Assembly: GCF_025751575.1 (NCBI RefSeq)
Contig: NZ_JAOWLA010000005.1
Coordinates: 1 to 64,000 of the forward strand
Reading direction: 5' to 3'
DNA: 64,000 bases
Origin: Albidovulum sediminicola
GTDB taxonomy: Bacteria; Pseudomonadota; Alphaproteobacteria; Rhodobacterales; Rhodobacteraceae
Below the pieces are notes generated by a model that saw nothing but the letters and a program-made list of their open reading frames with translations, made no database searches and had not been told where the DNA came from. The translations under genes and the position numbers were made by a program. Numbering within the stretch: position 1 is the stretch's first letter; the number at the start of each line of letters is the position of its first letter. This document shows, piece after piece, positions 18,484 to 39,865 of this stretch.

Positions 18484-18512
18484 GCGATAATTCTGGTGTC
18501 TGGAGAACGTAA

Positions 18513-21500: not shown

Positions 21501-21671
21501 TGGCAAGATTACGGAGAAGCACTTCTGACTTCGGCGGAAGCGGCAGCAGAGCGCGGCAACAAGGCACGCTTTGCCGGGCAAAAGCCGACCCCGAACTCGC
21601 TGCGTTCCGTTGAAGCTTCGGCATCGTATGTTCTTTTGGAAGGCGGATCCGACAGGGGGGCAGCACAATGA
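18513..21671 (+). CDS. drmA: DrmA-like DISARM helicase (1052 aa)
   Basis: Helicase of the DrmA type. A long N-terminal region (1-420) precedes the ATP-binding motif at about 428-436 (WFPTGGGKTEAYL). Then comes the strongly conserved MRYTLRLLTIQQFERA, a Walker B box read as DELH at about 633 (VIQDELHLISGPLGSLAGLYE), SNMISVGMDVSRLGLMVVNG at about 834, and motif VI EYIQATSRVGR. These blocks are typical of DISARM DrmA. It overlaps the DUF1998 gene by ATGA, as drmA-drmB pairs do. In DISARM, DrmA and DrmB form a complex that recognises incoming phage DNA; here that role is inferred from homology. Confidence 0.85.
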   Translation: MIDARDTLLERLKVDLIGPEEPNELIKDRPTDRYLTGILFPPRTTISPEDDDEASDADDADAVGTALDGVKAASAFRPSSAGLSFAVRPTGSAPRLRVRVDGARYRPESAADDSAGSSMKRVQSWRRDPQFAEVSLQLAELREEAAPVISLAGSGLAGTSLHCRIAPWGDILLVTLAVTNDARPTEARSRAANEEAALFQFSLSVECAADCSFVPKPDRAGSASDEDDARTSALLYRNVQQFAVGHTCSAMWDESVDGAVRQVRTSWFPEATVHVVSAEGDIEFRQDEARLPLAASWLASEEAPILFAGLKSFVAAYAQWVARMEDAALGMPEEHVKQARVHMQRCRTAEQRMRAGIALLESSPEVLTAFRLANAALALQYSWRINPQPPDLIWRPFQLGFALLCLESIANPDSSDRETMDLLWFPTGGGKTEAYLLLTAFTIFLRRLRAAGNPSGAGVTTFMRYTLRLLTIQQFERAAALICACEMVRRGKVKLREVDLPAHFATDMPISLGLWVGEGATPNTVSQAEQVLGTEAESSPAQLRSCPCCREVLDWKISPDKSRLEVRCLTKSCDVGQELALLPIWTVDEDVYRERPTLLIGTVDKYAQITRNQKTGCLFGIGTAADSPELVIQDELHLISGPLGSLAGLYETAIDELCRSASGVRAKIIGSTATIRRAEDQIKALFDRSSFQFPPPGLDHTNSGFAIENRDVPGRRYIGISTVGRSAKFTQQAVAASLLQAATDTTLPPDRRDGYWTLVNYFNSLRELGGALVLMRDDVARSIRDYAARRPGEVERDAGMQIELTSRVRSSDIPKYLKDLERAWSDPDHVDIVLASNMISVGMDVSRLGLMVVNGQPKTIAEYIQATSRVGRSQQAPGVVITLFNAAKSRDRSRYETFASWHRSLYRDVEATSVTPFAPRARDRALHAPYVAMVRHLVDGMENPGAIEHHQREAEALLETVIARIERIDPVEADAARAQLNSFLDDWFDRHGLKDYWQDYGEALLTSAEAAAERGNKARFAGQKPTPNSLRSVEASASYVLLEGGSDRGAAQ

Positions 21672-23488
21672 AGCCGATCGGCAAAATTCGTCGGAGTCAG
21701 GTTCTGACGGGCAATGGCCCCGGTGCGATCATCGACTTCAGAGGCGAGAACGGCGCGCCTGTCTCCGTGGTGGCGGCTGGTCTTGAGGCCTGGGATCAAC
21801 TGGCCATCAAGAAGGGGCTTCTGAACGATCAACGCATTCATCATGAGCCACTTCAGGCAAGGCTTCAGGTGAACGGGTTCAGGTTACCCCCTGTGGGAGA
21901 CGAAAAAGTCGGAAGGGAAAAGCGACCACGCCTCTTGCCTGCCTACAGGTTCCCGGATTGGCATGTCTGTCCGAAGTGCAACCTCCTGCAGCGTAGCCGC
22001 TTCTGGAGTTCCGAGATCGGAAAACCCGAGCTTTGGTGCCCTTCGTGCAGTTCCGGGCGAGGCTCACGCATCAGGAAGGTATATGCAGTGCCGGTCCGCT
22101 TCATCGTGACCTGCCCGGCGGGGCATCTTCAGGACTTTCCCTGGATGTCATGGCCGAAGCACGCCGAGTCCTGCTCCCGCAAGAAGCCTCTCAAGCTCAT
22201 CGGGGAAGGCGCCGGGTTGAAGGGGCTCAAGGTGCATTGCACCGAGTGCAAGTCCGAACGCGACCTGGATGGTGCCTTGTCCCCCGGCGCGCTGGGCAAG
22301 ATTTCATGCGACGGCAGGTCACCATGGCTCAGGAAGCAGCCAGAACCCTGCAACCATCAGCCAGTTGCGATTCAGCGCGGTGCATCGAACGCCTATTTCC
22401 CCGTAATTGAATCCGCGCTTGACGTGCCGCCGTTCGGTGGTTCCTTCCGGGACATGCTGGAGGATTTCTGGCCGGACATCATTGCGCTGGACGACAGGGC
22501 GCAGCTCCCCGACTTCGTCCGGAAGCGAATCCTTCCCGTCTGGCCTGAGCCTGACACGAAGCCGGAAGATCTGACCGCGCGGATACTGACCCTGCTGACA
22601 ATGCTCGACAACAAGGCCGGTGACCTGCGTCCCAACGAGCACCTGATGCTTTGCTCGGGCGGCCCGGACGGAGAAGAGTTCCCGGAGTTCCAGATCTCGC
22701 CTCAGGCGATCCCGAGCGATCTGAAGGGCGTTCTGGACCGTGTAGTCTCGGTCGAGAGGTTGCGCGAAGTCCGAGCTCTTAAGGCATTCACCCGTCTCAG
22801 TCCGGTGGAAGCCGCCGACAACAGCGCTTTCGTGGCGCCACTATCTGAGAAGAAGTTGAACTGGCTTCCGGCAATCGAGGTGCGCGGGGAAGGCATATTC
22901 ATCAACTTCGACGAGACAGCCGTACGTTCATGGGAGAACGACCCAAACGTGGTCGAAAGGGCTGCAAAAGCGCATCAGGCCGCCGAGCGTGCGTGGCAGG
23001 ACCACAACGGCAGCGATCGCCCCTTCCCCATGACGATCTCGGCGAGGTTGCTCCTGATACACACAACGGCCCACGCGCTCTCGGAGCGCCTGTCACTCGA
23101 CAGCGGGTACTCGACCGCGTCCATCCGAGAGAGGTTGTACGTCTCGCCAGGTCCCGGCGGGATGTGCGGATTCCTTCTATACACATCCGCACCGGACTCC
23201 GATGGAACACTGGGCGGGTTGTCACGAAAGGGACGCACTAGCGAGATTGGCCCGATCTTGCTCGCCGCACTTCGGGATCTCGAGTGGTGCTCTTCGGATC
23301 CGCTATGCAGCAGCGGCATCCTTTCGCTCTCAGAAGGATCTGGATCCTCGGCCTGTCACTGCTGCACCTTCCTGCCGGAAACCTCGTGCGAGCATTTCAA
23401 CCGCCACCTTGATCGCGGCATGCTGGTCGGAACACCGGCGAACCCTGAACTCGGTTTCTTCCGCAAGCTTCTGGATGGAAGGTCCTGA
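21668..23488 (+). CDS. drmB: DrmB-like DUF1998 protein (606 aa)
   Basis: Starts within the drmA stop (ATGA) with a purine-rich site (GGGGGG/AGCAC) ahead of it. The opening RSQVLTGNGPGAIIDF is a DrmB signature. Two Cys pairs follow at about 100 and 124 (CPKC, CPSC), then further Cys in SCSRKK and CTEC, and a C-terminal DUF1998 block from about 464 (HTTAHALSERLSLDSGY) to a Cys-rich end (SACHCCTFLPETSCEHF), likely zinc-binding. DrmB has no catalytic motif of its own and partners DrmA. Length matches the family (about 600). This gene pair is the main reason for calling the locus DISARM-like. Confidence 0.85.
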   Translation: MKPIGKIRRSQVLTGNGPGAIIDFRGENGAPVSVVAAGLEAWDQLAIKKGLLNDQRIHHEPLQARLQVNGFRLPPVGDEKVGREKRPRLLPAYRFPDWHVCPKCNLLQRSRFWSSEIGKPELWCPSCSSGRGSRIRKVYAVPVRFIVTCPAGHLQDFPWMSWPKHAESCSRKKPLKLIGEGAGLKGLKVHCTECKSERDLDGALSPGALGKISCDGRSPWLRKQPEPCNHQPVAIQRGASNAYFPVIESALDVPPFGGSFRDMLEDFWPDIIALDDRAQLPDFVRKRILPVWPEPDTKPEDLTARILTLLTMLDNKAGDLRPNEHLMLCSGGPDGEEFPEFQISPQAIPSDLKGVLDRVVSVERLREVRALKAFTRLSPVEAADNSAFVAPLSEKKLNWLPAIEVRGEGIFINFDETAVRSWENDPNVVERAAKAHQAAERAWQDHNGSDRPFPMTISARLLLIHTTAHALSERLSLDSGYSTASIRERLYVSPGPGGMCGFLLYTSAPDSDGTLGGLSRKGRTSEIGPILLAALRDLEWCSSDPLCSSGILSLSEGSGSSACHCCTFLPETSCEHFNRHLDRGMLVGTPANPELGFFRKLLDGRS

Positions 23489-23490
23489 AG

Positions 23491-25167
23491 ATGGCCCGCA
23501 TGTATCCAAGGGAACTGCCGCGTCATGTTCTTGAAAATCCGAAACTGTCTTCGGAGGTCCGCGTCTACGAACGCATGAGGGACAAACTGCCAGGGGATTA
23601 CAACTGCTACTATTCGCGCTCCTGGCATGAAGCGGATCGCGACGGTGCCGAGTTCGACGGAGAAGCGGATTTCATCGTCGCGCATGCGGAACACGGGTTG
23701 CTGTTTCTCGAGGTAAAGGGCGGAAGGGTGAGCTGCCGTGAAGCCGACGGACAGTGGCTCAGTGAGGACCGTGACGGGTTCAAGTTCCGGATCAAGAATC
23801 CATTGTCGCAGGCACGCAGCAGCAAGCACCATTTCCTGAAGCGCCTCAATGCAAGTCGGGCGCTGAGCGGTCGTTTCGTCAGAGCACGCCATGGCGCTAT
23901 CCTTCCCGGCAGTGCCCGACCCAGACGAGCGCTGGCACCAGATGCGCCGCTCGAGATCATCGCGTTCGGGGACGACATGGAAACCCTCGATCGCTGGATT
24001 GTCCGTCGGATGACGGAAGGCGACGACCATCGCGAAAGCGCTTTGGGATTAGATGGCCTGAGAGCGCTGGAAGAGCTACTTGCGAGCCATTTCGAACTCA
24101 GGGCCCACATCGGCATCAGCCTCGCCGACGATGCCAGAACCATCGAGCGGCTCACCGCCGAACAGTCGTGGATCCTCGACTCGCTCGCAGACAACAAGGA
24201 AATGGCAATTTCGGGCGGTGCGGGCAGTGGAAAGACCGTGCTGGCTGTTGAAAAGGCCACAAGATCCGCCGCTGATGGGCGACGTACGCTTCTGACATGC
24301 TACAACGCGCCGCTGGCCGCCCATCTTCGAACGATCTGTCAGGGAAATGAAGGCCTCGTAGTAGCCAGTTTCCATGCGCTTTGCCGAGCCCTCGCACAAA
24401 AGGCTGGCGTCGAACTGCCCTCTGACGGGGACCAATCGGTGTTCGACCACCTTCTTCCCGAGGCCCTTGTGGACGCGGTCAGCAACAACCCCGATCTCGG
24501 CTTCGATACTGTCATCATCGATGAGGGACAGGACTTTCGAGATTCCTGGTTGCACGCCCTACGCCTCACCATCAACGACCCGGAGACCGGCGGATTCTAT
24601 GTATTCTACGACGACAATCAGCGCCTGTTCTCTCCGGAAAAGGGGTTCATAGATGCTCTCCCGGCGTCGTCCATCGCACTGACAAGGAATCTTCGAAACA
24701 CGCGACGGATTCATGCCCTGATGGCAAAATGGTATCAGGGCCGACGAAGCATCCCTGCAGGACCTGAGGGAGAGCCGGTTGGAACCATGGCATGTCGCAA
24801 CGGCGAAATGGCCCTCGCGCGCCTGAACGAGCGGATTTCGCAAATGTTGAACTCCGGTCAAGTAGCGCCGGGGCAGATTGCGGTGCTCTCAGGAACAGGT
24901 GACGCCTTGACTGCTCTTGGCGAAAGGATCGCCGGCAAGCCAACCTGCCGTGCCGATGATGTGCGGCCTGATCACATCGTCCTTGACACTGTCCGGCGCT
25001 TCAAGGGCCTGTCGCGTCCATGCATCTTCCTGATCGGCATCGAAGGTCTCACCGATCCCGAACTGATCTATGTCGCGACAAGCCGCGCAAATGTCCTGCT
25101 GGAAATCATCGGGACAGCGGAAGACATCGCCCGCCTCAAGCAGGAGGTGGCAGCCGCCGGACCGTGA
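23491..25167 (+). CDS. NERD-nuclease/SF1 helicase fusion protein (558 aa)
   Basis: The N-terminal NERD domain (about 20-100) carries a PD-(D/E)xK-like core: Asp60 (GEADFIV) and Glu74-Val-Lys76 (LLFLEVKGG). A UvrD-like helicase follows, with Walker A SGGAGSGKTVLA at about 240, Walker B VIIDEGQDF at about 341, the middle motif FYDDNQRLF and the terminal VATSRANVLLE. It begins 2 bp after drmB, so it belongs to the same operon. In described DISARM loci the small fifth gene is drmC, a phospholipase-D-like nuclease; no HKD protein is visible here. This fusion may supply the nuclease function instead. That is inference. Confidence 0.85.
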   Translation: MARMYPRELPRHVLENPKLSSEVRVYERMRDKLPGDYNCYYSRSWHEADRDGAEFDGEADFIVAHAEHGLLFLEVKGGRVSCREADGQWLSEDRDGFKFRIKNPLSQARSSKHHFLKRLNASRALSGRFVRARHGAILPGSARPRRALAPDAPLEIIAFGDDMETLDRWIVRRMTEGDDHRESALGLDGLRALEELLASHFELRAHIGISLADDARTIERLTAEQSWILDSLADNKEMAISGGAGSGKTVLAVEKATRSAADGRRTLLTCYNAPLAAHLRTICQGNEGLVVASFHALCRALAQKAGVELPSDGDQSVFDHLLPEALVDAVSNNPDLGFDTVIIDEGQDFRDSWLHALRLTINDPETGGFYVFYDDNQRLFSPEKGFIDALPASSIALTRNLRNTRRIHALMAKWYQGRRSIPAGPEGEPVGTMACRNGEMALARLNERISQMLNSGQVAPGQIAVLSGTGDALTALGERIAGKPTCRADDVRPDHIVLDTVRRFKGLSRPCIFLIGIEGLTDPELIYVATSRANVLLEIIGTAEDIARLKQEVAAAGP

Positions 25168-25190
25168 AGTCGGCTCCACAAAGTGAAGGT

Positions 25191-26819
25191 TTAGGAAAAG
25201 TCGAACAGGCTGTTTTGTGTCGGATGCGCATCCGCCGATGACATATCCGGCTGTTGAGGATCATTGCCATCGCTCGCAGAATTAAGGCCGACAATGGCAT
25301 TCAACACGATCTGTGCGATCTGGCGGGCCAGAAACGGTGGTACGGCGTTCCCGACCTGGACGTATTGCTGAGTCCGGTTTCCCATGAACAGGTAGTCATC
25401 GGGGAATGTCTGAAGGCGCGCAGCTTCGCGCACCGTGAGGCTGCGGCACTGCAAAGGATCCGGATGGATGAAGTAGTGACCGTCTTTCGAGATATGGCTC
25501 GTGACCGTTGTCGATGCCTCATCGGCCAGCTGGACCCGGAACCGGTCATTGAACACACCGCTGTGCCAGTTGCGATGATCCGGGCTCAGAGCGAGTGGAA
25601 AATCGGCGGCCTTCGGGCTGTAACCACGGACGGCCCCGAACAATGAGGCGAAGAGGTAGCGGCCGAGATCCGAGGCCATGTGTCCCCGCGTCTCGTGTTG
25701 GGCGAAAACGCGAAGCTCGGGACGCTCCAGCCAGCGCAGCAGCTCGTCGTTCGAATTGCCGTAGCTCTCAGGAAGACGTGTGTGCGTCCTACTGCCCGGA
25801 GCTTCCGTCGCCATGCGCCTTACTACTGAAGAGAATGCCTCACGGAGCGGCTGATTGTCCCTCCCGGGATGAATGCGCGCCAGCAGTTTCGCAGCATCGA
25901 CAACCTCCCGCCGCCAGTCTTCTGCGCTGTCCGCCCCGCGACTGATCCCGCTTCGCAAGGGGGGCATGGAGTCAATGACGTCACTGACAGATCGTGCTGG
26001 TCCGGAGACCGCAATGGCAGCGCCGGCAGTGTTTCCTGACAAATCAGCCCTGATCCCGACGATGATTACCCGATGGCGTCGCTGCGGAACACCGAACTCT
26101 TCGGCGCGCACGACGAAGTCCGAAGGACGCAGCGCCTCCTGCAGGCTGGCCTTGCCGTCTTCGACCCGAATGGCCCGCAGCTCGTATTGTTGGCCATGGC
26201 CACTGCCGAGGGAGGTAAGGTCTTCCATCAACATCTCGAACACGAGCCGGCTCTCCACCGTCGAGGACAACATCCCCTTGACGTTCTCCATAACGAAGGC
26301 TGCCGGCCGGAGCCTGTCGAGAACCCTGATATACTCGCGGAACAGGTAATGCCGTTCATCCTCCTCCGGCACATAGCCAACCTTGCCCCTCGACCGGGCC
26401 CGACCCACGAGGGAGTAGGCCTGACACGGCGGGCCGCCGATCAGGATCGTGTCGTCGCACCCCGACTTCAGTTTCTCGATGGCAGCATCAATCGCTGTTG
26501 CCGCGGCCTCGGTACCGAGCTCTAGGCCGCGGGCCTCCTTGACGGCCAACCGCCAAGCAGACGCATCGACTTCCGACCAGTCCGGTTCAGCAGTTTCCCC
26601 CGCATGGAATTCGATGAACTGCTTCGGCAAACTGCCATGACGCGACCGGTATTCGCGGAGAAACGCGCGCAACATCAGGGTTCGGTGCGCCGATGCCTCC
26701 TTCTCGACCGAGATGCCGATCCGGAACGGCGCGTGGCCATCCTCGACAAGGGATGCAAACCCCTCGCCAAGTCCGCCGGGGCCGGCGAACAGATCAACGA
26801 TACCGAAAGTCGACGGCAA
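25191..26819 (-). CDS. DNA (cytosine-5) methyltransferase, DrmMII-like (542 aa)
   Basis: All main C5-methylase motifs are visible. Motif I is VDLFAGPGGLGEGF (8-21), which binds S-adenosylmethionine. Motif IV is GGPPCQAYS with catalytic Cys132, motif VI is ENVK (178-181), motif VIII is QRRHRVIIVG, and motif X is YVQVGNAVPPFLARQI near the C-terminus. A long insert around 300-430 may hold target recognition. It converges on the NERD-helicase gene and is divergent from vsr. In class 2 DISARM a C5-methylase (drmMII) marks host DNA so that it is spared; the same role fits here. A stand-alone methylase-Vsr pair is the alternative. Confidence 0.93.
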   Translation of the reverse strand: MPSTFGIVDLFAGPGGLGEGFASLVEDGHAPFRIGISVEKEASAHRTLMLRAFLREYRSRHGSLPKQFIEFHAGETAEPDWSEVDASAWRLAVKEARGLELGTEAAATAIDAAIEKLKSGCDDTILIGGPPCQAYSLVGRARSRGKVGYVPEEDERHYLFREYIRVLDRLRPAAFVMENVKGMLSSTVESRLVFEMLMEDLTSLGSGHGQQYELRAIRVEDGKASLQEALRPSDFVVRAEEFGVPQRRHRVIIVGIRADLSGNTAGAAIAVSGPARSVSDVIDSMPPLRSGISRGADSAEDWRREVVDAAKLLARIHPGRDNQPLREAFSSVVRRMATEAPGSRTHTRLPESYGNSNDELLRWLERPELRVFAQHETRGHMASDLGRYLFASLFGAVRGYSPKAADFPLALSPDHRNWHSGVFNDRFRVQLADEASTTVTSHISKDGHYFIHPDPLQCRSLTVREAARLQTFPDDYLFMGNRTQQYVQVGNAVPPFLARQIAQIVLNAIVGLNSASDGNDPQQPDMSSADAHPTQNSLFDFS

Positions 26820-26886
26820 ATCAGGCTCCTGACGAACTTCATTCAGCCGGTGTATACCAGGTTCAGGGACGAAAACCAGGACGCAT

Positions 26887-27351
26887 GTGACAGATATCGT
26901 GGATCAGCAGACCCGCTCGCGGATGATGTCGGGGATCAGGGGCAAGGACACGAAGCCCGAGCTCGCTCTGAGGCGGGCGTTGCACGCGCGTGGCTTTCGC
27001 TTCCGACTTCATTCCAAGAAGGTCCACGGACGACCAGACCTCGTTCTGCCGAAGTATCGCGCCGTCGTCTTCGTACATGGCTGCTTCTGGCATCGCCACG
27101 AGGGGTGCCGCTACACCACCACACCATCGACTCGCCAGGAGTTTTGGCAGGCGAAGTTCGAGGCCAATGTCGCCCGGGACGAAGCAGTTCGCGAGAAGCT
27201 TCTGGAAGACGGGTGGCGCGTTGCAACGGTGTGGGAGTGCGCTCTCCGAAAACCGGATCGGGTGAACGCCTCCGCCGACCTCCTGTCGGCTTGGCTGCGG
27301 TCGAATGAGCTTCAGCTCCAGATCGGCGACGAAGATGCGGGTAGGTCCTGA
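26887..27351 (+). CDS. vsr: Very short patch repair endonuclease Vsr
   Basis: A 154-residue protein with the Vsr layout: an N-terminal part (RSRMMSGIRGKDTKPELALRRALHARGFRFRLH), then GRPDLVLPKYRAVVFVHGCFWHRHEGCRY, which contains the catalytic Asp (RPD) and the His/Cys zinc ligands. The family cuts next to T:G mismatches that arise when 5-methylcytosine deaminates. It is divergent from the C5-methylase with 67 bp between starts, the typical pairing. It protects the host from the mutagenic side effect of that methylase. The start codon is read as GTG at 26887, in ACGCATGTGACAGAT. Confidence 0.92.
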   Translation: MTDIVDQQTRSRMMSGIRGKDTKPELALRRALHARGFRFRLHSKKVHGRPDLVLPKYRAVVFVHGCFWHRHEGCRYTTTPSTRQEFWQAKFEANVARDEAVREKLLEDGWRVATVWECALRKPDRVNASADLLSAWLRSNELQLQIGDEDAGRS

Positions 27352-27581: not shown

Positions 27582-28988
27582 TCAATCTAACAATGTACCG
27601 GCCCAAGCCGCCCGCTCCAGCAAGTAATTGCGGTGCCCAGCCAGTAGGCCGGCGTCATCACCCTGGGCTACGGCAATCATGTCTTCAATCTCGGCGAGTG
27701 CCTGCGGATAGGTCAGCCACGGCTTCGTGCCGTCCGCCGCCATCAGGCGTCGGGCAATGGCCGCATCGTAATCAAGGCGCGCCACATCATCCATCAGTTC
27801 CGGCGCCTCGACATAGAGAAGGCGCTGCCCCAAGGCACGCAATCGCCCGTCCGCAAGCCGACCAATCACCGGCACGCGCTGCGTCCACTCCAAGCTATGG
27901 AACTGATCCATAAGGGCATTGTCATCGTGGGTGGTGAACCCATCGTAGATTTGTTCCTCGACATGCTCCGAGGGTTTCCGCTCTTCGCGGGACGCAAGAC
28001 GAGCCACGATCAGCCGCTCGCATAGCGCGGCATCTCCTTTGACGCGCGCGGCCCGGCGCCTGAGTTCATCAAGCGCCGGCCAGGCATCACGCATGTCTTC
28101 GGGGGCATCTTCGTAAGGCATCACGATCGGCCCGGCATTCGTGCGCATGCCCCGCACGGGCTTGGGGCTTTGTGCGAGAACGCCCGCAAGGTCCTCATCA
28201 TCCAGAACCGCGAGGTCATCCGGATCGTTTGAAAGATCGAGGACAAACATTTCCGAGCCATTCTCGGGATTGGTGCCGATCGCGGTCACCATCCAGGAAT
28301 AGGGCCGCGCGTAGTAGAAATCGGTCAAGACAAATACGTCCTCTTCCAGCGCAAAATCCGTCACCGCGGCCTTCTGCGCAAAGCGCACGAACCGCGACCA
28401 GTGCTCCGGCTCGCGCTCGGCAATGAGCCGGCACATGTGGATCGTCGCTTCCACATCGGCCATCGCATCATGGGCCGCGCTGTGATCGAACCCGTTCGCC
28501 GGTGCCAGCCGGTCGAGTTTGAACAACTGCTTACCCCGATTATCGACGGTAATGTTCAAGGCATCCGGCGCGAAGCGCGCGACCGCCTGGATCATCCGCA
28601 GACTGTCGGTCCGGCAATTTCCGTTCGTGTTGGTGAGATAGGGCGCATGCAGCGTCTTGTAGAACGCCTGCCGGAGCAGGTGTTCATCAAAGCCGAGCGA
28701 GTTGTGACCGATGAAAATCGCCGGCGACCATTCCGTCAGTTTGGCACGGATTGCCCGCACCATCTGGTAGTGTGTCGGCAGTGACGGATCGACGAGCTGC
28801 CCGGCGGTAACACCGGTTACGCGCATCGCACCGGGGGCCGGCACGACATAGGGCAAGAGCCGGCAGCGGATTTCGAAGCGGTCGATTTCATTGAGTTCGT
28901 AGTTGGTCCTGATCGCGCCAAACTGCAGAATCTGGTCGAAGGCGGTGTTGGTCCCCGTGGTCTCGGTGTCGTAGAAGACAAAACTCAT
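27582..28988 (-). CDS. Exonuclease I-like 3'-5' DNA exonuclease (468 aa)
   Basis: Full-length homologue of SbcB/exonuclease I (E. coli protein 475 residues). The DEDDh active site is intact: Asp7 and Glu9 (YDTETTG), Asp101 (HNSLGFDEHLL), His173 and Asp178 (AAHDAMADVEA). The SH3-like and C-terminal helical parts are also recognisable (EEQIYDGFTTHDDNALMDQFH). It is the third gene of an XRE-ImmA/IrrE-exonuclease operon, 20 bp after the peptidase gene. Exonuclease I is not a usual alphaproteobacterial housekeeping gene to my knowledge, and this setting suggests an effector or DNA-processing role in a defence unit rather than recombination repair. Confidence 0.88.
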   Translation of the reverse strand: MSFVFYDTETTGTNTAFDQILQFGAIRTNYELNEIDRFEIRCRLLPYVVPAPGAMRVTGVTAGQLVDPSLPTHYQMVRAIRAKLTEWSPAIFIGHNSLGFDEHLLRQAFYKTLHAPYLTNTNGNCRTDSLRMIQAVARFAPDALNITVDNRGKQLFKLDRLAPANGFDHSAAHDAMADVEATIHMCRLIAEREPEHWSRFVRFAQKAAVTDFALEEDVFVLTDFYYARPYSWMVTAIGTNPENGSEMFVLDLSNDPDDLAVLDDEDLAGVLAQSPKPVRGMRTNAGPIVMPYEDAPEDMRDAWPALDELRRRAARVKGDAALCERLIVARLASREERKPSEHVEEQIYDGFTTHDDNALMDQFHSLEWTQRVPVIGRLADGRLRALGQRLLYVEAPELMDDVARLDYDAAIARRLMAADGTKPWLTYPQALAEIEDMIAVAQGDDAGLLAGHRNYLLERAAWAGTLLD

Positions 28989-29008
28989 CGAGGGCCTCCC
29001 GCGTTCGC

Positions 29009-29536
29009 CTAGGCGAACAGGTTTCCGAGTCTGAAGCGCATTGCCGATGCGCTGACCTTGTACTGTTTGGCGAGGGCGCTGACGGCGCCTTCATCATCTA
29101 TGTCGAACGGCTCGCCATCGAGCGAGGCGGCAAGGAACGACTCCGGCATCAGAAGCTCGGCGGCAAACAGATTGGCCTCGATCTCCATCTCGTTGGCGCC
29201 CGTTGCCGATACGGCGTTGCGCATCAGCATCGGGAAGCCCTTATCGACATGGATTTCCTTGGTGATCTCGGCACGGTGAAGCTGCAGATGACCGAGCTCG
29301 TGCGCGATCGTGAATCGCTGGCGGTTCGGGTGATGCAGCGCATTGACGCCGACAATCGGCGTGCCGTCCTTCACGTAGATCATCCCGGACAGCTCGTCGT
29401 CGAGCGGAGAAAAACGGAGCTGCGCGCCGAGCGCCTTGGCGATCCGCTCCACCGGCACAGGCGCCGAAGTGATGCCTTGATCTTCCAAGAGCACCTGCGC
29501 TCGTTGCTGTATTTTCGTTCTCCTCTGCGGGGTCAT
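29009..29536 (-). CDS. ImmA/IrrE-family zinc metallopeptidase (175 aa)
   Basis: The zinc motif HELGH is at residues 79-83 (FTIAHELGHLQLH), and the third-ligand region EIEANLFAAELLMPESF follows about 45 residues later, as in ImmA/IrrE. These peptidases cleave a partner repressor after DNA damage or phage attack. The start overlaps the stop of the XRE gene (ATGA at 29533-29536), which strongly implies that XRE is its substrate or partner. No C-terminal sensor domain is present. It probably releases repression of the operon and maybe of the divergent ubiquitin-like operon. Confidence 0.9.
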   Translation of the reverse strand: MTPQRRTKIQQRAQVLLEDQGITSAPVPVERIAKALGAQLRFSPLDDELSGMIYVKDGTPIVGVNALHHPNRQRFTIAHELGHLQLHRAEITKEIHVDKGFPMLMRNAVSATGANEMEIEANLFAAELLMPESFLAASLDGEPFDIDDEGAVSALAKQYKVSASAMRFRLGNLFA

Positions 29537-29913
29537 CGATCCTCCCTTCCGGCCTTGTCTCCGGCATTTCCGTTGTGGTTGTTCTCAAGGACGCCGCCCA
29601 TCAGGCTCAACACTTCCTGGCGCTGCTTGTCGGTCAGTCCTTCTCCCGATAGCGGCAAGTCCGCCGCAGCGCCGCGCTTCCGCCCTCCGCCTTGCGGGGT
29701 CAGCAATAGCTGCACCGGCGATTCGAGTTGCAGGCCGTCAGCAAGGGCAAAAAGGTGGTGGACAAGCACCTGTTGCTTTCCCCGTTCGATATTCGCGAGC
29801 GACGCGCGCGATATCCCGACCTGCTTGGCGAGTTGGTCCTGGGTCAGACCAAGACTTTTCCTCAAACCCCTGATTCTGAGGCCTAAATCTTTGTATATGC
29901 GTTCAGCGTCCAT
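29533..29913 (-). CDS. XRE-family HTH transcriptional regulator (126 aa)
   Basis: Residues 6-65 form a classic Cro/CI-type helix-turn-helix (LRIRGLRKSLGLTQDQLAKQVGISRASLANIERGKQQVLVHHLFALADGLQL). A lysine/arginine-rich linker and a helical C-terminus (LTDKQRQEVLSLMGGVLENNHNG) follow. It is the first gene of the XRE-ImmA-exonuclease operon and faces the ubiquitin-like operon across 178 bp that hold palindromic sites. It is therefore the likely repressor of both directions. The C-terminal tail may be the region cleaved by the ImmA/IrrE peptidase; this is inference. Confidence 0.9.
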   Translation of the reverse strand: MDAERIYKDLGLRIRGLRKSLGLTQDQLAKQVGISRASLANIERGKQQVLVHHLFALADGLQLESPVQLLLTPQGGGRKRGAAADLPLSGEGLTDKQRQEVLSLMGGVLENNHNGNAGDKAGREDR

Positions 29914-29941
29914 CGCCCACCTCTAAGCGCAAACACTGGAC

Positions 29942-30005
29942 ATGTCAACTTCGCAAACCTTAATGTTTATACTACAAACATTTATTGTGATGGTGAGTTT
30001 GACAT
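29942..30005. promoter_or_regulatory. Nested inverted repeats, likely operator for the XRE regulator
   Basis: Two nested palindromes lie between the divergent operons. The inner one is AATGTTT (29962-29968), a 7-base spacer, and AAACATT (29976-29982). The outer one is ATGTCAA (29942-29948) and TTGACAT (29999-30005). The outer arms are also TTGACA boxes facing outward on both strands, so a repressor bound to the inner site would sit between two divergent promoters. The stretch is clearly AT-richer than neighbouring coding DNA. Confidence 0.6.
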
Positions 30006-30027
30006 ATTGCCTCTGATCTGCGATAGG
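29999..30027 (+). promoter_or_regulatory. Predicted sigma70-type promoter of the ubiquitin-like operon
   Basis: TTGACA (29999-30004) is followed after 17 bases by GATAGG (30022-30027). The -35 box is perfect; the -10 box is weak, as is common in alphaproteobacteria. The ubiquitin-like gene starts 65 bp downstream. A mirror TTGACA on the minus strand (29948-29943) points toward the XRE gene. Confidence 0.4.
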
Positions 30028-30091
30028 GGAATCGGAACGCGGGGCTTTCCGGCGCCGCACAACGCAACGCCCGGGACACATGGAGATTGTG

Positions 30092-30340
30092 ATGGCGCAC
30101 GAAGAAGTAACTCTCGAAATCGGGACGCCGAAGGGGCTGTTCAGCGGAACCTTCCCGAAGACGGTAAAGGTCGAAGATGTGATCGAGGCCGCGGTCGAAG
30201 CGAAAGGCATCGACAGCGGCGAGGCTCTGGAGCTCGTCAATAACGGCGAGGTCCTGCAGCCGGTGCAGCGCACGCTGGTCAGCTTCGGCCTCGCCGGCAC
30301 CGTGTCGCTCGAACTGGTCGCGACCGGCTCGGGGGTCTGA
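30092..30340 (+). CDS. Ubiquitin-like beta-grasp modifier protein (82 aa)
   Basis: A single beta-grasp domain with the ubiquitin pattern: strand VTLEIGTPKGLFSGTF, helix KTVKVEDVIEAAVEAKG, strand ALELVNNGEVLQP, and the end RTLVSFGLAGTVSLELVATGSGV. The modifier ends Gly79-Ser80-Gly81-Val82, not with a bare Gly-Gly, so trimming of Val82 by the JAB peptidase would expose a glycine. ATG 30092 is chosen because GGAG lies 7 bases upstream; ATG 30080 has no such site. It is the first of four tightly packed genes: modifier, E2, JAB and E1. In known bacterial Bil-type systems the modifier is attached to phage structural proteins. Confidence 0.8.
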   Translation: MAHEEVTLEIGTPKGLFSGTFPKTVKVEDVIEAAVEAKGIDSGEALELVNNGEVLQPVQRTLVSFGLAGTVSLELVATGSGV

Positions 30341-30343
30341 ACG

Positions 30344-30787
30344 ATGGCCACCGCCGGCGCGCTCGTGTTTGACGAACAGTTCCGCGATCTAAAGGAGATC
30401 GCGAGCGCCCGGCCATGGCAACTCGACGATGACTTCGTATTCGGCCTGACTGCCCGCGACGGCGAAACGTACTGGCTGAAGGTCGATTGCACCGACTACC
30501 CGGCACTTCCGCCGGCATGGCACTGGTACAGCCCCGAGAGCAAGGCGATCGACCAACCTGCCGACTCGCCGAAAGGCAGCGGATTCCTCCATGGCTCCGG
30601 ACGCATTTGCGCGCCGTGGAACCGCCTTGCCTACAAGAAGATCGATCCCCAGGGACCGCACGACGACTGGGACCTGAATGGCTGGCAGACGAATCCGAAG
30701 ACCGGCAGATGCACGACGCTGGCAGCAATGGCGCTGCGCATTCATGTCGAGCTCAACAGCAAACGTTATCAGGGCCGGATGAGGTAG
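30344..30787 (+). CDS. E2-like (UBC-fold) conjugating protein (147 aa)
   Basis: 147 residues, the normal size for an E2 core. The probable catalytic cysteine is Cys89 in GFLHGSGRICAPWNRL, matching the eukaryotic E2 pattern of a conserved His and Gly shortly before the Cys. A Trp-rich segment follows (DDWDLNGWQTNP) and a long C-terminal helix (CTTLAAMALRIHVELNSKRY). The N-terminal half has the expected beta-meander (FVFGLTARDGETYWLKVDCTDYPALPPAWHW). It starts 3 bp after the modifier gene. It would accept the activated modifier from the E1-like protein and pass it to a target. Assignment rests on motif and context. Confidence 0.7.
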   Translation: MATAGALVFDEQFRDLKEIASARPWQLDDDFVFGLTARDGETYWLKVDCTDYPALPPAWHWYSPESKAIDQPADSPKGSGFLHGSGRICAPWNRLAYKKIDPQGPHDDWDLNGWQTNPKTGRCTTLAAMALRIHVELNSKRYQGRMR

Positions 30788-30791
30788 CGCG

Positions 30792-31313
30792 ATGTTCCGG
30801 GCCCTGAAAAAGCTCTTTGCACCCAAGCCGAAATTCAAGCCCGGCCCACCGCCGCCTTCCCGGCTGGTCATCACGCGATCCTGCATCGAAGGGCTGGGCG
30901 AGTGCCTTTCCCCCGAGATTGACCGGGGCCATGAGGGCATCGCCTATCTGCTCGGACAGAGCGACGGGACCACGACGGTCGCCGTCGCCGCCATCCGCCC
31001 GAAGGCGCGGACCACGCGCGGCAGCTTCGCGGTCGAAGCGCCGGCGATGGCGCGCGTGGTAAGGGCTGCCGTTGATCGCGGCCTGCAAGTGGTTGGTCAG
31101 GTCCATACCCATCCTGGCGAGGCGTATCATAGCGACGGCGACAACGACGGCGCCAAAATCGCCTTCACCGGCTATGTCTCGGTCGTGCTACCAGACTATG
31201 GACGGCAGCTACCGGCGCTCACTGGGGCTGCGACGTATTTCTTCCAGGCCGGCAGCCGCTTCATCCCGATGGCCCCCGACGCCATCACAGTCATTTCGGG
31301 GCGGGTCGAATGA
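30792..31313 (+). CDS. JAB/MPN (JAMM) deubiquitinase-like metallopeptidase (173 aa)
   Basis: An intact JAMM zinc site: Glu48 (GHEGIAYLL), His105 and His107, Ser114 and Asp117 in HTHPGEAYHSDGDND. That is the canonical H-x-H-P-x6-S-x2-D spacing. Known JAMM proteins in bacterial operons of this type process the modifier C-terminus or remove it from targets. The N-terminal 25 residues are basic and proline-rich. The gene lies 4 bp after the E2-like gene and overlaps the E1-like gene (ATGA at 31310-31313). Because the modifier ends in Val, maturation by this enzyme is likely needed. Confidence 0.9.
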   Translation: MFRALKKLFAPKPKFKPGPPPPSRLVITRSCIEGLGECLSPEIDRGHEGIAYLLGQSDGTTTVAVAAIRPKARTTRGSFAVEAPAMARVVRAAVDRGLQVVGQVHTHPGEAYHSDGDNDGAKIAFTGYVSVVLPDYGRQLPALTGAATYFFQAGSRFIPMAPDAITVISGRVE

Positions 31314-32647
31314 GAGACCACGAGTACTACGCCTCCCGCGATGACCGGCTGCTGCGCTATCCCGAGGCTCGCCGCCTCGACCAGACTCGCTGGATCGCGA
31401 TATCGGCAGCGCCGGACTACCTTCAGACCTACGCCGGCCAGGTGGCGGTGCTGACTGCGGCCAACCTTCTTGGCCGCATGTCCCGTCGCGTCGTGCTCGA
31501 TATCCCCGCGATCGCGATGGTGGCCTCTCTTCCGTGGGCGGAACACGATCTGCGGGCCTTTGCGCTGGCCCAGATGCAGGCAGCCGACCCCCGCGGCGAC
31601 TATCGTGTGCGCCAAGCCCAAGAAGGCGACCATATCCTGCACCTTGGCGCGAGCGGAGCACCTGTCATCACGCACGGCAGCGGCTGGCTCGCCTATCACG
31701 GCCCCAGCTCGTCGCCGCTGCCCCTCGATGACTCGGCGAATCCTGTTGGTGCCGCCCTCGCCGTGATAGCGGCCGCCGCGCGGCTAGCGGTGAATGGATT
31801 CGACTGCGGCCCGCAGACACCTCTTCAACTCAATGCCTTTGACTGGACGCACCAAATTGGCCCAACGCCCCCCATGCCATCTTGTCCGGACTTGGGGTCG
31901 CTATGGACGGTCGGCACGGGCTCGGTCGGCACCACGATCCTTTATTTCCTGACGCTGGCGACCCGGAAGTTCTCACCGGCCCTGTTCGACGGCGACAAAG
32001 TCAAGCGCCTGAACATCACCCGTTCTCCGATCTTCGCCGACTCCGATGTCGGCGCCTCGAAAGTGATGGTCACGGCAAACCACCTACGAGCCTGTGGTAT
32101 CGCGGATGTGGTCGCCGAGCCAAAGCCACTGCACGAATCGCGTCGCTGGCTCGACCGCGAGGCCGGCACCCCCGATCTCGTCATCGCCGCCGCTAATGAG
32201 CACAACGTCCGTCACCTGATAGAGTCTCAGTTCCCGCCGATCCAGATCTACGGGACCACTGGCAAGAACTGGCAGGCGTCGGTGATCCGGCATGCGCCGC
32301 TGATCGATCCATGTTCGTGCTGCCTGTTCCCGGAGGCTACATATGCTGCGACTGCATGCGCCACCGACGCTGAAGCCGTGTCCGACAAGAGTGAACAGAT
32401 CGACGCCTCCTTGCCTTTCCTGTCGTTCGCCGCGGGCCTGATGGCGGCAGCCGAGATTCTGAAATTGCATGTGCCAGGCTACGTCATGAAACCCAACCGG
32501 GCCGTCCTGATGACGAAGCCAGATCTACGGCTCGTGCGCGCAGCAGTTCCCTTTAGAGACGGATGCACATGCCAAACCCGGAGTGAGACGGTTCACGCCA
32601 AAATGATTGGCGAGAGCCGATTTGCGGGCCTGTCGATCAGCGCTTGA
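31310..32647 (+). CDS. E1/ThiF-like activating enzyme with an N-terminal extra domain (445 aa)
   Basis: The C-terminal half is a ThiF/E1 adenylation domain. The nucleotide loop is GTGSVG (202-207), followed by FDGDKVKRLNITRSPIFADSDVGASKV (ATP-binding Asp, Asn-x-x-Arg, Lys) and NEHNVRHLIESQF. Cysteines at 335, 337, 338 and 350, and at 419 and 421, offer a catalytic thiol and possibly a zinc site. The first 190 residues form an additional domain of the ThiF-like or inactive type (YAGQVAVLTAANLLGRMSRRVVLDIP). It would adenylate the modifier and hand it to the E2-like protein. It is the last gene of the operon. Confidence 0.85.
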   Translation: MRDHEYYASRDDRLLRYPEARRLDQTRWIAISAAPDYLQTYAGQVAVLTAANLLGRMSRRVVLDIPAIAMVASLPWAEHDLRAFALAQMQAADPRGDYRVRQAQEGDHILHLGASGAPVITHGSGWLAYHGPSSSPLPLDDSANPVGAALAVIAAAARLAVNGFDCGPQTPLQLNAFDWTHQIGPTPPMPSCPDLGSLWTVGTGSVGTTILYFLTLATRKFSPALFDGDKVKRLNITRSPIFADSDVGASKVMVTANHLRACGIADVVAEPKPLHESRRWLDREAGTPDLVIAAANEHNVRHLIESQFPPIQIYGTTGKNWQASVIRHAPLIDPCSCCLFPEATYAATACATDAEAVSDKSEQIDASLPFLSFAAGLMAAAEILKLHVPGYVMKPNRAVLMTKPDLRLVRAAVPFRDGCTCQTRSETVHAKMIGESRFAGLSISA

Positions 32648-36821: not shown

Positions 36822-37312
36822 ATTCGGCCGATCGGCGAGTTGCGCCAAGAGACCTGCCTGAGGCTCTTGCTGCAGTCGAAACCGCAGATCGCGCCGGCCT
36901 GCTCGGTCTCTGGCGCGAGGTGATTGGGGCACCTCCCCCAAAGAACCTCTCGCTGCCCTTCCTGCGTCGGGCGCTCGCCTTCGAATTGCAATGTCAGATG
37001 CTTGGCGGTCCCAAGGCCCGAACGATCGAGGACCTAGGCCGCATCGCCGCGGGTTCCGCATCTCGGGCGTCCGTTGGCACCAAGCTGCGCCCCGGCGCGA
37101 AGCTGGTCCGAGAATGGCAGGGCCGCACTTGGACCGTCGAGGTGATCGACGGCGGGTTCTTGATGGCCGGGGAGCGGTATGTGTCGCTCTCCGCCATTGC
37201 CAGGAAGATCACCGGGGCCCGCTGGTCGGGCCCCCGGTTTTTCGGGCTGACGGGCGACGCCGGACGGGATGCACCGCCCACCAAGCCGTCTCAGCGCGGA
37301 AAGGCAGCTTGA
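36818..37312 (+). CDS. DUF2924 domain protein (164 aa)
   Basis: DUF2924 signature blocks: LLGLWREVIGAPPPKNLSLPFLRRALAFELQCQMLGG, LRPGAKLVREWQGRTWTVEVIDGGFLMAGERYVSLSAIARKITGARWSGPRFFGL. The second block resembles a small DNA-binding AP2/RAMA-like fold. Members almost always sit between DUF3489 and a large serine recombinase, so DUF2924 may be the accessory or directionality factor; that is inference. Translationally coupled to DUF3489 by ATGA and only 1 bp from the recombinase start. Confidence 0.88.
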   Translation: MNSADRRVAPRDLPEALAAVETADRAGLLGLWREVIGAPPPKNLSLPFLRRALAFELQCQMLGGPKARTIEDLGRIAAGSASRASVGTKLRPGAKLVREWQGRTWTVEVIDGGFLMAGERYVSLSAIARKITGARWSGPRFFGLTGDAGRDAPPTKPSQRGKAA

Positions 37313-37313
37313 G

Positions 37314-38966
37314 ATGGCGCGCCGGATCCGTTGTGCAATCTACACCCGGAAATCCTCCGAGGAAGGACTCGATCAGGACTTCAACTCGCTTGATGCCCAG
37401 CACGAGGCCTGTGCCGCCTATGTGACGAGCCAGAAGGCGGAAGGTTGGGTGCTGGTCCCGACCCGCTACGATGACGGCGGGCTGTCCGGGGGGACCATGG
37501 AGCGGCCTGCGCTGCAGCGCCTGCTCGCGGATATCGAGGCGGGGCTCGTTGATCAGATTGTCGTCTACAAGATAGACCGACTGACCCGGTCGCTCTCCGA
37601 CTTCGCGAAAATTGTCGATCGGCTTGATGCAGCCGGCGCCTCCTTCGTCTCGGTCACGCAGTCCTTCAACACCGCCACCAGCATGGGACGGCTAACGCTG
37701 AATATGCTCCTCAGCTTCGCGCAGTTCGAGCGCGAGGTGACAGCGGAACGGATCCGCGACAAGATCGCCGCCTCGAAGAAGAAGGGGCTCTGGATGGGCG
37801 GCACAGTTCCCTTCGGCTACCAGCCTGACGGCCGCAGCCTGAAGATCGACGAGACCGAAGCGCCAATCGTCCGCCGCATCCATGACCTCTATTACGATCT
37901 CGGCTCGGTCCGCGCAGTCGCCGAACGTGCGGAAGAACTTGACTATCGAACGCGGTTGCGGTCGTTCGCGAAGGGCACATCGACCGGCGGCACATCATTC
38001 AGCCGCGGGCACATCTATCAGATCCTGAGGAATCCGCTTTACGCCGGCCGCATCCGGCACCGGGATAAGATCTATGACGGGCAGCATCCCGCAATCATTG
38101 ACCCTGCGGCATGGGACGAAATGCAAGAACGTCTTGCCTCCGAAGCGGCCCGAACCCGCGGTCGGTCGAACGCGACGGAACGCTCGCCCTTGGTCGGCAA
38201 GCTCTTCGATGAGACCGGAGATCGGTTGACCCCGAGCCATTCTCGGAAAAACGGCAAGCGTCTGCGCTACTACATCTCGCGCAGGTTGGTGACCGACCGG
38301 CGTGAGAAACACGCCGATGCATGGCGGTTGCCGGCCCGGGATCTTGAGAACGGATTAGCACGGATTCTGCGGGATCACCTGCGCAAACCCACCTTGGTGA
38401 CCGATCTGGTCCGGGGCATCACGGCCTCTGAGGTCCCCGCGCTGCAGGAGAAGCTTCTGCAAGTCGCGAATAATTGTGACCCAGAGGGCAGCGCTGACTT
38501 CTGGGCACCGCTGTTGCGCCGCGCCGATCTTGCGCAGGGTAGCATCCTCTTGCGGCTCGACCGGAAGGTTCTGGCGGAACGGCTTGGCATCGCGCCGGAT
38601 CGGATTGAAAGCTCGGCCCGACGGATTCCCGCATCCTTTCAGATGCAACGTCGAGGTGTCGAAGCACGCATCATTCTCGGTAGCGCGGTCCCGCGGGTCG
38701 ATCCAGTGCTTGCGAAGAACATCCTGACTGCACAACGATGGTACGCGGCCATTAAGGACGGCGCCTCCTTCGGCGACCTTGCTATTCGAGAGAAAACCAC
38801 CTCGAGCCGCATCCAGCAGATGATCGGTCTCGCCTTCCTCGCCCCAGATATTCTGGATCAGGTGGCAGCGGGTAGCCAGCCCGTTGCCTTCACATCGGAA
38901 TGGTTCAAGCGAAGGCAGCTGCCCCTGGAATGGGATATGCAGCAGCGCGTTTTTGGTAGTCTCTGA
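37314..38966 (+). CDS. Large serine recombinase of the DUF3489-DUF2924 cassette (550 aa)
   Basis: The catalytic domain has Y10-x-R12-x-S14 (IYTRKSS), then DQDFNSLDAQHEACAAYV, YDDGGLSGGTMERPALQRLL, YKIDRLTRSL and the AQFEREVTAERIRDKI helix. The recombinase domain follows (GTVPFGYQPDGRSL, then IYQILRNPLYAGRIRH). The zinc-ribbon equivalent has lost its cysteines (LVGKLFDETGDRLTPSH). Start ATG 37314, one base after the DUF2924 stop. It is a second, different recombinase from the one at 6272 and probably mobilised the right half of the island. Confidence 0.9.
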   Translation: MARRIRCAIYTRKSSEEGLDQDFNSLDAQHEACAAYVTSQKAEGWVLVPTRYDDGGLSGGTMERPALQRLLADIEAGLVDQIVVYKIDRLTRSLSDFAKIVDRLDAAGASFVSVTQSFNTATSMGRLTLNMLLSFAQFEREVTAERIRDKIAASKKKGLWMGGTVPFGYQPDGRSLKIDETEAPIVRRIHDLYYDLGSVRAVAERAEELDYRTRLRSFAKGTSTGGTSFSRGHIYQILRNPLYAGRIRHRDKIYDGQHPAIIDPAAWDEMQERLASEAARTRGRSNATERSPLVGKLFDETGDRLTPSHSRKNGKRLRYYISRRLVTDRREKHADAWRLPARDLENGLARILRDHLRKPTLVTDLVRGITASEVPALQEKLLQVANNCDPEGSADFWAPLLRRADLAQGSILLRLDRKVLAERLGIAPDRIESSARRIPASFQMQRRGVEARIILGSAVPRVDPVLAKNILTAQRWYAAIKDGASFGDLAIREKTTSSRIQQMIGLAFLAPDILDQVAAGSQPVAFTSEWFKRRQLPLEWDMQQRVFGSL

Positions 38967-39274
38967 CTTTTCATTTCCCTGCAAAATCGCATAATAATAA
39001 AAGCTTGGACTGCAACGCCGATCTCTTCTCATTGCTCGCCAATGTATATCGCTCGTCCGGCGTCAGAGCCCGAGCAGAGAAGATGTGTCTAGCTGAACCG
39101 GGACAGCGCGCCGCGGCCGGAGGCGTCACTGGGCCTGCGCGGGGTCCAACTCCGGTCACATGCAATCAGCAAACTGCCACTTTTTCTCTGTAGGGATAAA
39201 ACTGCATTTCATAGAATTGACTCGCGGGGCAAACTAGTCTAAATCTCTGTATATGGCTTACAGAGGATTTCCCC
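38967..39274. other. Intergenic region between recombinase and type I R-M operon (308 bp)
   Basis: No gene seen. It contains a run of T and A (GCATAATAATAAAAGCTTGG) after the recombinase and a putative promoter close to its right end (listed separately). The middle part is GC-rich without a clear repeat. I could not find a copy of the tRNA-Ser 3' end here. Confidence 0.45.
39217..39245 (+). promoter_or_regulatory. Putative promoter of the type I restriction operon
   Basis: TTGACT (39217-39222) followed after 17 bases by TAAATC (39240-39245), 30 bp before the first gene of the restriction operon. The -35 box has one mismatch to TTGACA and the -10 box is weak. Position is the main support. Confidence 0.35.
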
Positions 39275-39865
39275 ATGAGGCTCGCGGAGCTCTCCGACAT
39301 TCACTCCGGCTACACGGCGCGCGGCAGGCTCGATCCGCTGCCGGAGGGTGGCATGCCGGCGCTGCAGCTGCGTGACGTCGGGGCTAGCGGTGAGGCGCCC
39401 GGCCCGGACTTCCAGAGGTACGACCTGGACAAGCTGTCCGACCGATACTTTGTCCGCGGCGGCGAGGTTGTCTTTCGATCGCGTGGCGAGCCGAACGCCG
39501 CGGCGGCCATTCCCGCTTCGCTGCCGGAGCCCGTCGTGGTCATCGTCCCATTGGTGATCATTCGCCCCGACAGGGACCGAGTTCTCCCCGAATACGTGGC
39601 ATGGGCCATCAACCAGCCCGATGCGCAGCGCAGGCTCGGCGCGGAGGCACAGGGCACAAGCCTCAGGATGATCCCGATGACAGTCCTCGAGAACCTCGAG
39701 ATCGCCGTCCCCGACCTGCCCACACAGAAACGTATCGTCGAACTTGATGCCCTCGCTCGGCAGGAGGGGCAACTGCTCCGACAGCTCGCGGCGCGCAGGG
39801 AAACGCTCGTAAGCGCCATTCTCGGCGATGCCGCGAAGGCCGCCGACCAGAAGGAAATTGCCTGA
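39275..39865 (+). CDS. Half-size HsdS-like specificity protein (196 aa)
   Basis: It resembles one target-recognition half of a type I S subunit: an N-terminal RLAELSDIHSGYTARGRL, then MPALQLRDVG, VFRSRGEPNAAA and a terminal conserved helix (LPTQKRIVELDALARQEGQLLRQLAARRETLVSAIL). Normal HsdS has two such halves in about 400 residues. Here there is one TRD and one coiled-coil helix, so it could dimerise to give a palindromic site. A complete HsdS also exists in the operon at 41372. Its stop overlaps the hsdM start by one base, which supports a true functional gene. Confidence 0.75.
   Translation: MRLAELSDIHSGYTARGRLDPLPEGGMPALQLRDVGASGEAPGPDFQRYDLDKLSDRYFVRGGEVVFRSRGEPNAAAAIPASLPEPVVVIVPLVIIRPDRDRVLPEYVAWAINQPDAQRRLGAEAQGTSLRMIPMTVLENLEIAVPDLPTQKRIVELDALARQEGQLLRQLAARRETLVSAILGDAAKAADQKEIA

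Follow-up and report, generated by a model that had tools for sequence, protein, structure and literature searches.

The 64,000-nucleotide stretch of the Albidovulum sediminicola genome analyzed here (contig NZ_JAOWLA010000005.1, positions 1 to 64,000; hereafter the window) carries two divergent gene groups. On the forward strand, an operon for ubiquitin-like conjugation (30080-32647) encodes a ubiquitin-like modifier (Ubl), an E2, a JAB protease, and an E1, in the BilA-BilB-BilC-BilD order of Bil (bacterial ISG15-like) systems. On the reverse strand (27582-29913) lie genes for a CapH-like XRE repressor, a CapP-like M78 peptidase, and an exonuclease I (ExoI) homologue, together referred to as the trio. 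An initial annotation of this DNA had described the conjugation genes as packed with 3- to 4-bp gaps or an ATGA overlap, and the coordinates agree: 3 bp separate the Ubl stop (30340) from the E2 start (30344), 4 bp the E2 stop (30787) from the JAB start (30792), and the end of the JAB gene (31313) overlaps the E1 start (31310) in ATGA. The annotated distance of 178 bp between the XRE and modifier genes holds for the second ATG of the Ubl gene (30092), compared to 166 bp from the first (30080); the second start matches homologue N termini (MPAEEV../MAQEE..) better. The opposite-strand XRE, ImmA/IrrE, and full exonuclease I genes could all be identified by hidden Markov model (HMM) matches (capH, capP, and exodeoxyribonuclease I), the ExoI gene falling just beyond the originally annotated span of 29009-32647.

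The modifier (30080..30340, + strand; start 30092 more likely) is a single-domain Ubl with the C terminus ..ATGSGV. No HMM matched it, and the PADLOC BilA model, which has 162 positions, misses this 86-aa protein. Its structural model (pLDDT 85) resembles chains of SUMO, ubiquitin, and bacterial Ubl proteins, and the Ubl profile matches a redesigned ubiquitin at 5e-6. The tail ends in GV in eight of nine aligned rows; the ninth, which is haloarchaeal, ends in GAGR. The next gene (30344..30787, +) encodes a BilB-like E2 of 147 aa, with a Cys89 in GRICAPWNRLAY that is invariant in all 10 aligned rows; its HMM matches are weak (BilB, 1e-4; DUF7665, 9e-4). It is followed by a BilC-like JAB/JAMM protease (173 aa; 30792..31313, +) containing HTHPGEAYHSDGD, which matches BilC in the PDB (8tyx, 4e-12) and the Prok-JAB (6e-9) and BilC (1.5e-14) HMMs, and by a BilD-like E1 (445 aa; 31310..32647, +) that matches BilD in the PDB (8tyz, 1.5e-22) and the ThiF (5e-11) and BilD (3e-13) HMMs. 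Residues C335, C338, C350, C419, and C421 of the E1 are invariant in five rows, and presumably have catalytic and zinc roles.

The gene order and the best PDB sequence matches, BilC 8tyx and BilD 8tyz, thus resemble Bil. However, the BilD score of 3e-13 contrasts with 4e-129 for the canonical Bil operon of locus L006, which scores 4e-42 to 4e-129 on the PADLOC Bil models, and the 86-aa modifier lies outside the BilA model. Because the modifier fails this family match, we classify the window operon, on sequence grounds, as a diverged, Bil-like clade rather than canonical Bil. Relatives within this clade come from records labelled Mesorhizobium, Parvibaculum, Bradyrhizobium, Mycobacterium, and Euryhalocaulis, as well as Acidobacteria, Bryobacteraceae, Nitrospirae, Dehalococcoidia, Proteobacteria, and haloarchaea. 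No E1 relatives were found in 50,697 phage records (tblastn, 1e-5), and a scan of viral contigs returned 14 matching stretches, none of which was confirmed.

Within the trio, the CapH-like repressor (126 aa; 29533..29913, −) matches HTH_3 (8e-13) and PADLOC capH (8e-12), and its gene shares 4 bp with that of the peptidase. The CapP-like M78/ImmA peptidase (175 aa; 29009..29536, −) carries a HELGH zinc motif and matches Peptidase_M78 (3e-25), PADLOC capP (1e-35), and CapP in the PDB (7t5t, 3e-5). The window therefore holds the pairing by which CapH+CapP is recognized, an XRE gene and a zinc-motif M78 peptidase gene beside an immune operon. The third protein, an SbcB-type exonuclease I homologue of 468 aa (27582..28988, −), matches PDB entry 4rg8 (E 5e-39), and a PDB sequence search returned exonuclease I entries only. 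It reaches 1e-60 on the exodeoxyribonuclease I HMM, with 205.7 bits being below that model's cut-off of 260, and 5e-119 on the PADLOC model RTasSbcB, the SbcB associated with defense-associated reverse transcriptases (DRTs). Residues D7, E9, D101, H173, and D178, which we take to be the DEDDh catalytic residues, are invariant in nine aligned trio rows.

A census seeded from the window proteins, with small profiles, yielded 12 loci with a CapH-CapP-ExoI trio, seven from genome searches and five from plasmid records (nine of 41 plasmid records with an ExoI match were inspected, giving five trios and four loci without one; records H10 and H11, of the same species as H9 and near-equal in length, were outside these nine). 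All 12 trios are divergent to a conjugation-type operon or to a cyclic oligonucleotide-based antiphage signaling system (CBASS) operon. The partners comprise three Bil operons, two multiubiquitin-E1 operons, one multiubiquitin-DUF6791-DUF6527 operon, one MBL/E2-E1-JAB operon, and five CBASS operons. Besides the window, the Bil operons are those of L006 and L007, both canonical. L009 and L010 encode multiubiquitin, a 110-aa protein, a protein in which a JAMM-like motif is visible by eye but Pfam gives no match, and an E1; L045 encodes multiubiquitin, a DUF6791-ThiF protein, and DUF6527. We read these three operons, from their gene content, as Bub-like. In L120, the trio faces genes for a protein whose closest matches are RTasMBL and LmuA, for a fusion of E2, E1, and JAB, and for a patatin. 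The CBASS partners consist of a cyclase with SLATT and DUF2235/Tle1-like genes (L008 and L122, the latter assigned by its likeness to L008), a cyclase with an AAA gene (L047), a cyclase with HNH-SAVED (L048), and a patatin with a short DncV-like fragment (L121). A small gene or open stretch separates trio and operon in L008, L047, L048, and L122. Thus, the same kind of trio stands in front of multiubiquitin, MBL/E2-E1-JAB, and CBASS operons (L008, L009, L010, L045, L047, L048, L120, L121, and L122) that differ from the window operon in their effector genes. Two loci show additional features. In L121 (4001-5774), the cyclase is reduced to a fragment of 122 aa next to a gene judged transposase-like by eye, and the trio reads intact. 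Genome G323, a Parvibaculum metagenome-assembled genome, has a Bil operon (L018/L065) with a CapP-type gene and no ExoI seen beside the operon; on another contig, its trio faces the CBASS cyclase of L047, beside VirD4-like and relaxase-like genes (by eye).

The intergenic region of the window contains TGTCAA (29943..29948, −), the putative −35 box (TTGACA) of a leftward promoter, and TTGAC (29999..30003, +), the putative −35 box of a rightward promoter. Between these back-to-back boxes sits an imperfect palindrome, TGTTTATACTACAAACA (29964..29980), as an operator candidate; a leader (30041..30091, +) precedes the Ubl gene. At up to three mismatches, the 17-base candidate occurs in a single place in the 4.13-Mb genome, and the backwards control pattern also gave one match. 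The layout TGTCAA-N(42-68)-TTGAC is present between CapH and the operon in 12/12 trio loci, compared to 0.042 expected from dinucleotide shuffles. It was absent from nine of nine Bil loci with CapP but without ExoI and from five further loci that have CapP and lack ExoI. A sequence near TGTTTGTATTACAAACA lies between the boxes in most trio loci, and at most 8/300 shuffles score as well on the operator consensus in 10 of the 12, a test that is descriptive since the consensus derives from the same loci. In 1.5 Mb of sequence outside the 12 loci, the two-box layout was encountered 32 times, 14 of them with an operator-like core; 11 of these cores are shorter copies of trio loci, and three (L049, L052, and L079) are not.

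Comparison of close relatives points to exchange of operons behind this promoter. The window and L120 share 80% residue identity in ExoI, 88% in CapP, and 73% in CapH, and 42 of the 51 leader positions. Past the leader, identity falls to 17/30 and then to 14/59 positions in the first effector gene, since the L120 operon is unrelated. With L045, which has a third kind of operon, residue identity is 71% (ExoI), 75% (CapP), and 69% (CapH), and 32/51 leader positions are common. The simplest reading is that the effector operon was replaced behind a kept controller and promoter. A single ancestral seven-gene unit was ruled out, as close kin bear other operons. Between leader and MBL-type gene, L120 also contains a stretch (10600-10683) resembling the first codons of the window Ubl gene, possibly a scar of an operon swap.

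To relate the trio to Bil more broadly, 32 bacterial Bil loci were compiled, 11 of the window's clade (the window, L005, L065 to L072, and L075, with L018 being the same locus as L065) and 21 canonical or BilD-like ones (L006, L007, and L148-L166). The set is small because the E1 scan of genome contigs, run with one peptide pattern, returned 12 loci; among plasmid records with a canonical E1 match, 12 of 35 were inspected, plus L006 and L007. L068 stops within CapP, and L152, L153, L154, and L156 yield partial operons. The 32 do not include L076, whose distant E1 lies at the end of a contig together with CapH and CapP, nor the three operons from haloarchaea (L011, L012/L074, and L013/L073), in which no trio gene was found. 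An M78 peptidase gene, as CapP, an HTH-M78 fusion, or an M78-UvrD fusion, adjoins 28 of the 32 operons, a tally of local profile matches at E<=1e-3, several of them weak (to 8e-4), plus L158 by Pfam alone. Pfam recovered Peptidase_M78 in all 11 peptidases checked besides that of the window (L065, L069, L070, L071, L072, L075, L148, L150, L157, L158, and L161), and some Bil-locus peptidases are closer to PD-Lambda-2_B than to CapP (L005 and L069). The initial annotation had held that the link would be accidental if the trio genes were seldom near relatives of the conjugation operon; by that measure, the peptidase was widespread, but the exonuclease was adjacent in only three loci (the window, L006, and L007), with one of the 11 in the window's clade. 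ExoI therefore tracks a controller lineage and not conjugation: Bil operons usually come with an M78 peptidase gene, and ExoI accompanies a single lineage of CapH-CapP. ExoI as a component of Bil itself was ruled out on the same 3/32 count.

Upstream of the canonical Bil operons at L148, L149, and L157-L165 is a gene for a fusion protein of approximately 1,115 aa that joins an M78/IrrE peptidase to a UvrD helicase. It mostly carries a PD-(D/E)XK-type domain as well (Pfam was run on L148, L157, L158, and L161, the domain being unlisted for L157). In plasmids, two small genes precede the fusion, the first annotated as a LuxR-/sigma-like HTH in four of nine.

For the reverse view, starting with ExoI, genomes were searched three times (385, 398, and 390 genomes), which gave 58 distinct ExoI places (26, 3, and 29 new, G594 being counted among the 3; some lie near contig ends). 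CapH and CapP are adjacent in seven, and the other 51 lack a CapP match. When each locus was searched with the partner proteins of other trio loci (E<=1e-5), such a neighbor was found in 8/12 trio loci versus 1/42 ExoI loci without CapP; the trio loci missed were L045, L048, L120, and L121, and the single positive without CapP was L055. A Fisher comparison of 12/12 with 1/36 was not used, as trio partners had been found by reading and Pfam/PADLOC and the others by local profiles only. In a 48-row tree of ExoI, two changes are needed to explain the trio label, against a shuffled mean of about 11 (0/500 shuffles as low); the base of the trio group has modest support. Viral contigs gave eight ExoI loci without any CapP match, of which L077 stops within ExoI.

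Several elements of this arrangement have published counterparts. PMC13373217 describes CapP as activated by single-stranded DNA (ssDNA) and cleaving CapH. It also places CapW or CapH+CapP, without giving the split, alongside 219 of 544 ubiquitin-like (Bub) operons, and the word "exonuclease" is absent from its main text. PMC10419184 describes Cap18, a CBASS 3'-5' exonuclease that co-occurs with CapW or CapH+CapP and is proposed to remove ssDNA or ssRNA, and, in PMC9122588, a catalytically dead Cap18 left protection unaffected in one system. The window trio is similar to the CapH+CapP controllers of CBASS and Bub in pairing an XRE repressor and an M78 peptidase beside an immune operon. It differs in adding a constant ExoI gene and the promoter layout, present at the 12 loci and not found at 14 CapP loci without ExoI. 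Like Cap18, its nuclease is a predicted 3'-5' exonuclease encoded with presumably ssDNA-responsive controllers. The two probably differ in family, Cap18 being RNase T/Orn-like and the window enzyme a full-length exonuclease I homologue. The initial annotation knew of no description of the combination. CapH+CapP beside ubiquitin-like operons is already known; for the ExoI-containing version, the literature searched (titles and abstract openings) showed no CapH-CapP-ExoI cassette, with an earlier mention in the Bub, Bil, CapH+CapP, or Cap18 papers being possible.

The trio and the conjugation operon look like one co-controlled unit, because all 12 trio loci face such operons and share the two-sided −35 layout. 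To this extent the earlier proposal of a single inducible defense unit of seven genes is supported; its picture of ExoI as a further weapon is the less likely one, since the exonuclease follows the XRE-peptidase pair instead. Our favored reading, which we hold to be reasonably probable, is that a diverged Bil-type operon is run by a portable, self-limiting switch of the DNA-damage type, in which CapH silences both sides, ssDNA-activated CapP cuts CapH, and ExoI degrades the ssDNA. Four directly observed features underlie it: the genes present, the conservation of active-site residues, that of the promoter layout, and a trio that stays constant while the effector operons differ. CapH on the palindrome between the back-to-back −35 boxes would keep trio and effector operon silent. 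Upon infection, ssDNA would activate CapP, CapH would be cut, and both sides would turn on; by analogy to the published relatives, ssDNA sensing and CapH cleavage probably also take place at the window locus. The E1 and E2 would then attach the Ubl to target proteins, which may be virion parts as in known Bil, where the modifier is conjugated to phage, and the JAB protease would detach it. ExoI, produced together with CapH and CapP, could degrade the CapP-activating ssDNA, thereby setting a threshold and resetting the switch.

That one three-gene switch faces several unlike immune operons suggests a portable on/off module, and the switch may digest its own trigger. In the wider version of this idea, CapH-CapP-ExoI and the two-sided operator form a mobile self-limiting control cassette, an ssDNA sensor packaged with an ssDNA-destroying enzyme. 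Behind its promoter, operons of the Bil, multiubiquitin, MBL, and CBASS types would replace one another, the seam lying close to where the first effector gene begins. We see this version as evenly poised between right and wrong. One locus thereby offers a testable rule, in which the traveling unit is the regulator rather than the effector, accompanied by a nuclease that consumes what is probably the inducing signal. If true, this would represent a negative-feedback design for bacterial immune switches, let a single sensor have either ubiquitin-like conjugation or CBASS operons as its interchangeable outputs, and provide a DNA signature for locating undiscovered immune operons behind the same promoter.

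Several observations weigh against this reading. The role of ExoI as a damper draws on logic and the Cap18 parallel, and ExoI is not seen at 29/32 bacterial Bil loci. On the ExoI tree, the non-trio row L123 is placed among the trio rows. For the E2, the structural model (pLDDT 77.5) matched nothing at E<=0.001; the best is an E2 at E 0.12, the bacterial E2 8tz0_C is matched at E 0.28 only, so that the fold match is weak, and the E2 profile found no match among PDB sequences. According to PMC13373217, protection from phage has yet to be demonstrated for Bub operons. The trio loci named to date are alphaproteobacterial (L006-L010 by name and L047 via a Parvibaculum contig in the same genome), the rest are drawn from the window's class (G341 and G361) or family (G774, G771, and G876), and several are close kin. 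The operator consensus is matched as well by 67/300 shuffles in L009 and 30/300 in L010. Outside the boxes, the promoter is poorly conserved even relative to L120 (37/67 and 25/60 positions), so the layout and not the whole sequence is kept, and identity with L045 shows no sharp fall at the start codon (14/30, 24/59, and 23/60). The L045 seam and these promoter identities weigh on the mobile cassette in particular.

Other explanations fit less well. The trio and the conjugation operon could be unrelated neighbors in a dense defense island, with DISARM-like genes on one side and type I restriction genes on the other, and ExoI stands beside just one of 11 bacterial operons of the window's Bil clade. 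Yet all 12 trio loci face such operons with a common two-sided layout, and the equal-method comparison separates 8/12 from 1/42; we rejected this highly improbable explanation on the partner and promoter results. In a reading along the lines of the initial annotation, the peptidase would switch on both conjugation and the nuclease, and ExoI would be a co-induced antiviral effector digesting phage replication intermediates. This suits an ExoI homologue that is complete and keeps the catalytic residues expected of it, encoded within the controller's operon and near other defense genes. It is nevertheless rather unlikely: ExoI keeps to CapH-CapP whatever the effector operon at the 12 loci, is unseen at most Bil loci, and enzymes of its type are not known to be selective for phage. 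A place for ExoI in the switch is more likely than a role as an additional weapon because the exonuclease follows the XRE-peptidase pair, also where the pair faces CBASS.

Alternatively, ExoI may be a detoxifying or repair enzyme that clears DNA ends or defense by-products so that the induced host survives, as Escherichia coli ExoI does with DRT9 products. The RTasSbcB match places its nearest PADLOC family with reverse transcriptases, and, as stated in PMC12483538, DRT9 could not be introduced by transformation into a strain with an sbcB deletion. Reading of trio neighborhoods brought up no reverse transcriptase, though no search was aimed at one. Neither Bil nor CBASS is known to synthesize DNA, and we consider this role improbable. 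The damper or reset role in the self-limiting switch fits best because ExoI stays with the sensor irrespective of the effector.

The trio and conjugation operon are flanked by further defense genes. DISARM-like genes occupy window positions 10035-27351: a DpdE/DrmD-like helicase with a weak match (10035-13199), DrmA (18513-21671), DrmB (21668-23488), a NERD-helicase (23491-25167), a cytosine methylase with DrmMII as its best match (25191-26819), and Vsr (26887-27351). On the other side (37269-47356) are a serine recombinase (37269-38966) and the type I restriction genes HsdM (39865-41382), HsdS (41372-42607), and HsdR (43952-47356). A serine recombinase of L045 resembles that of the window, with 76.5% DNA identity over 494 bases.

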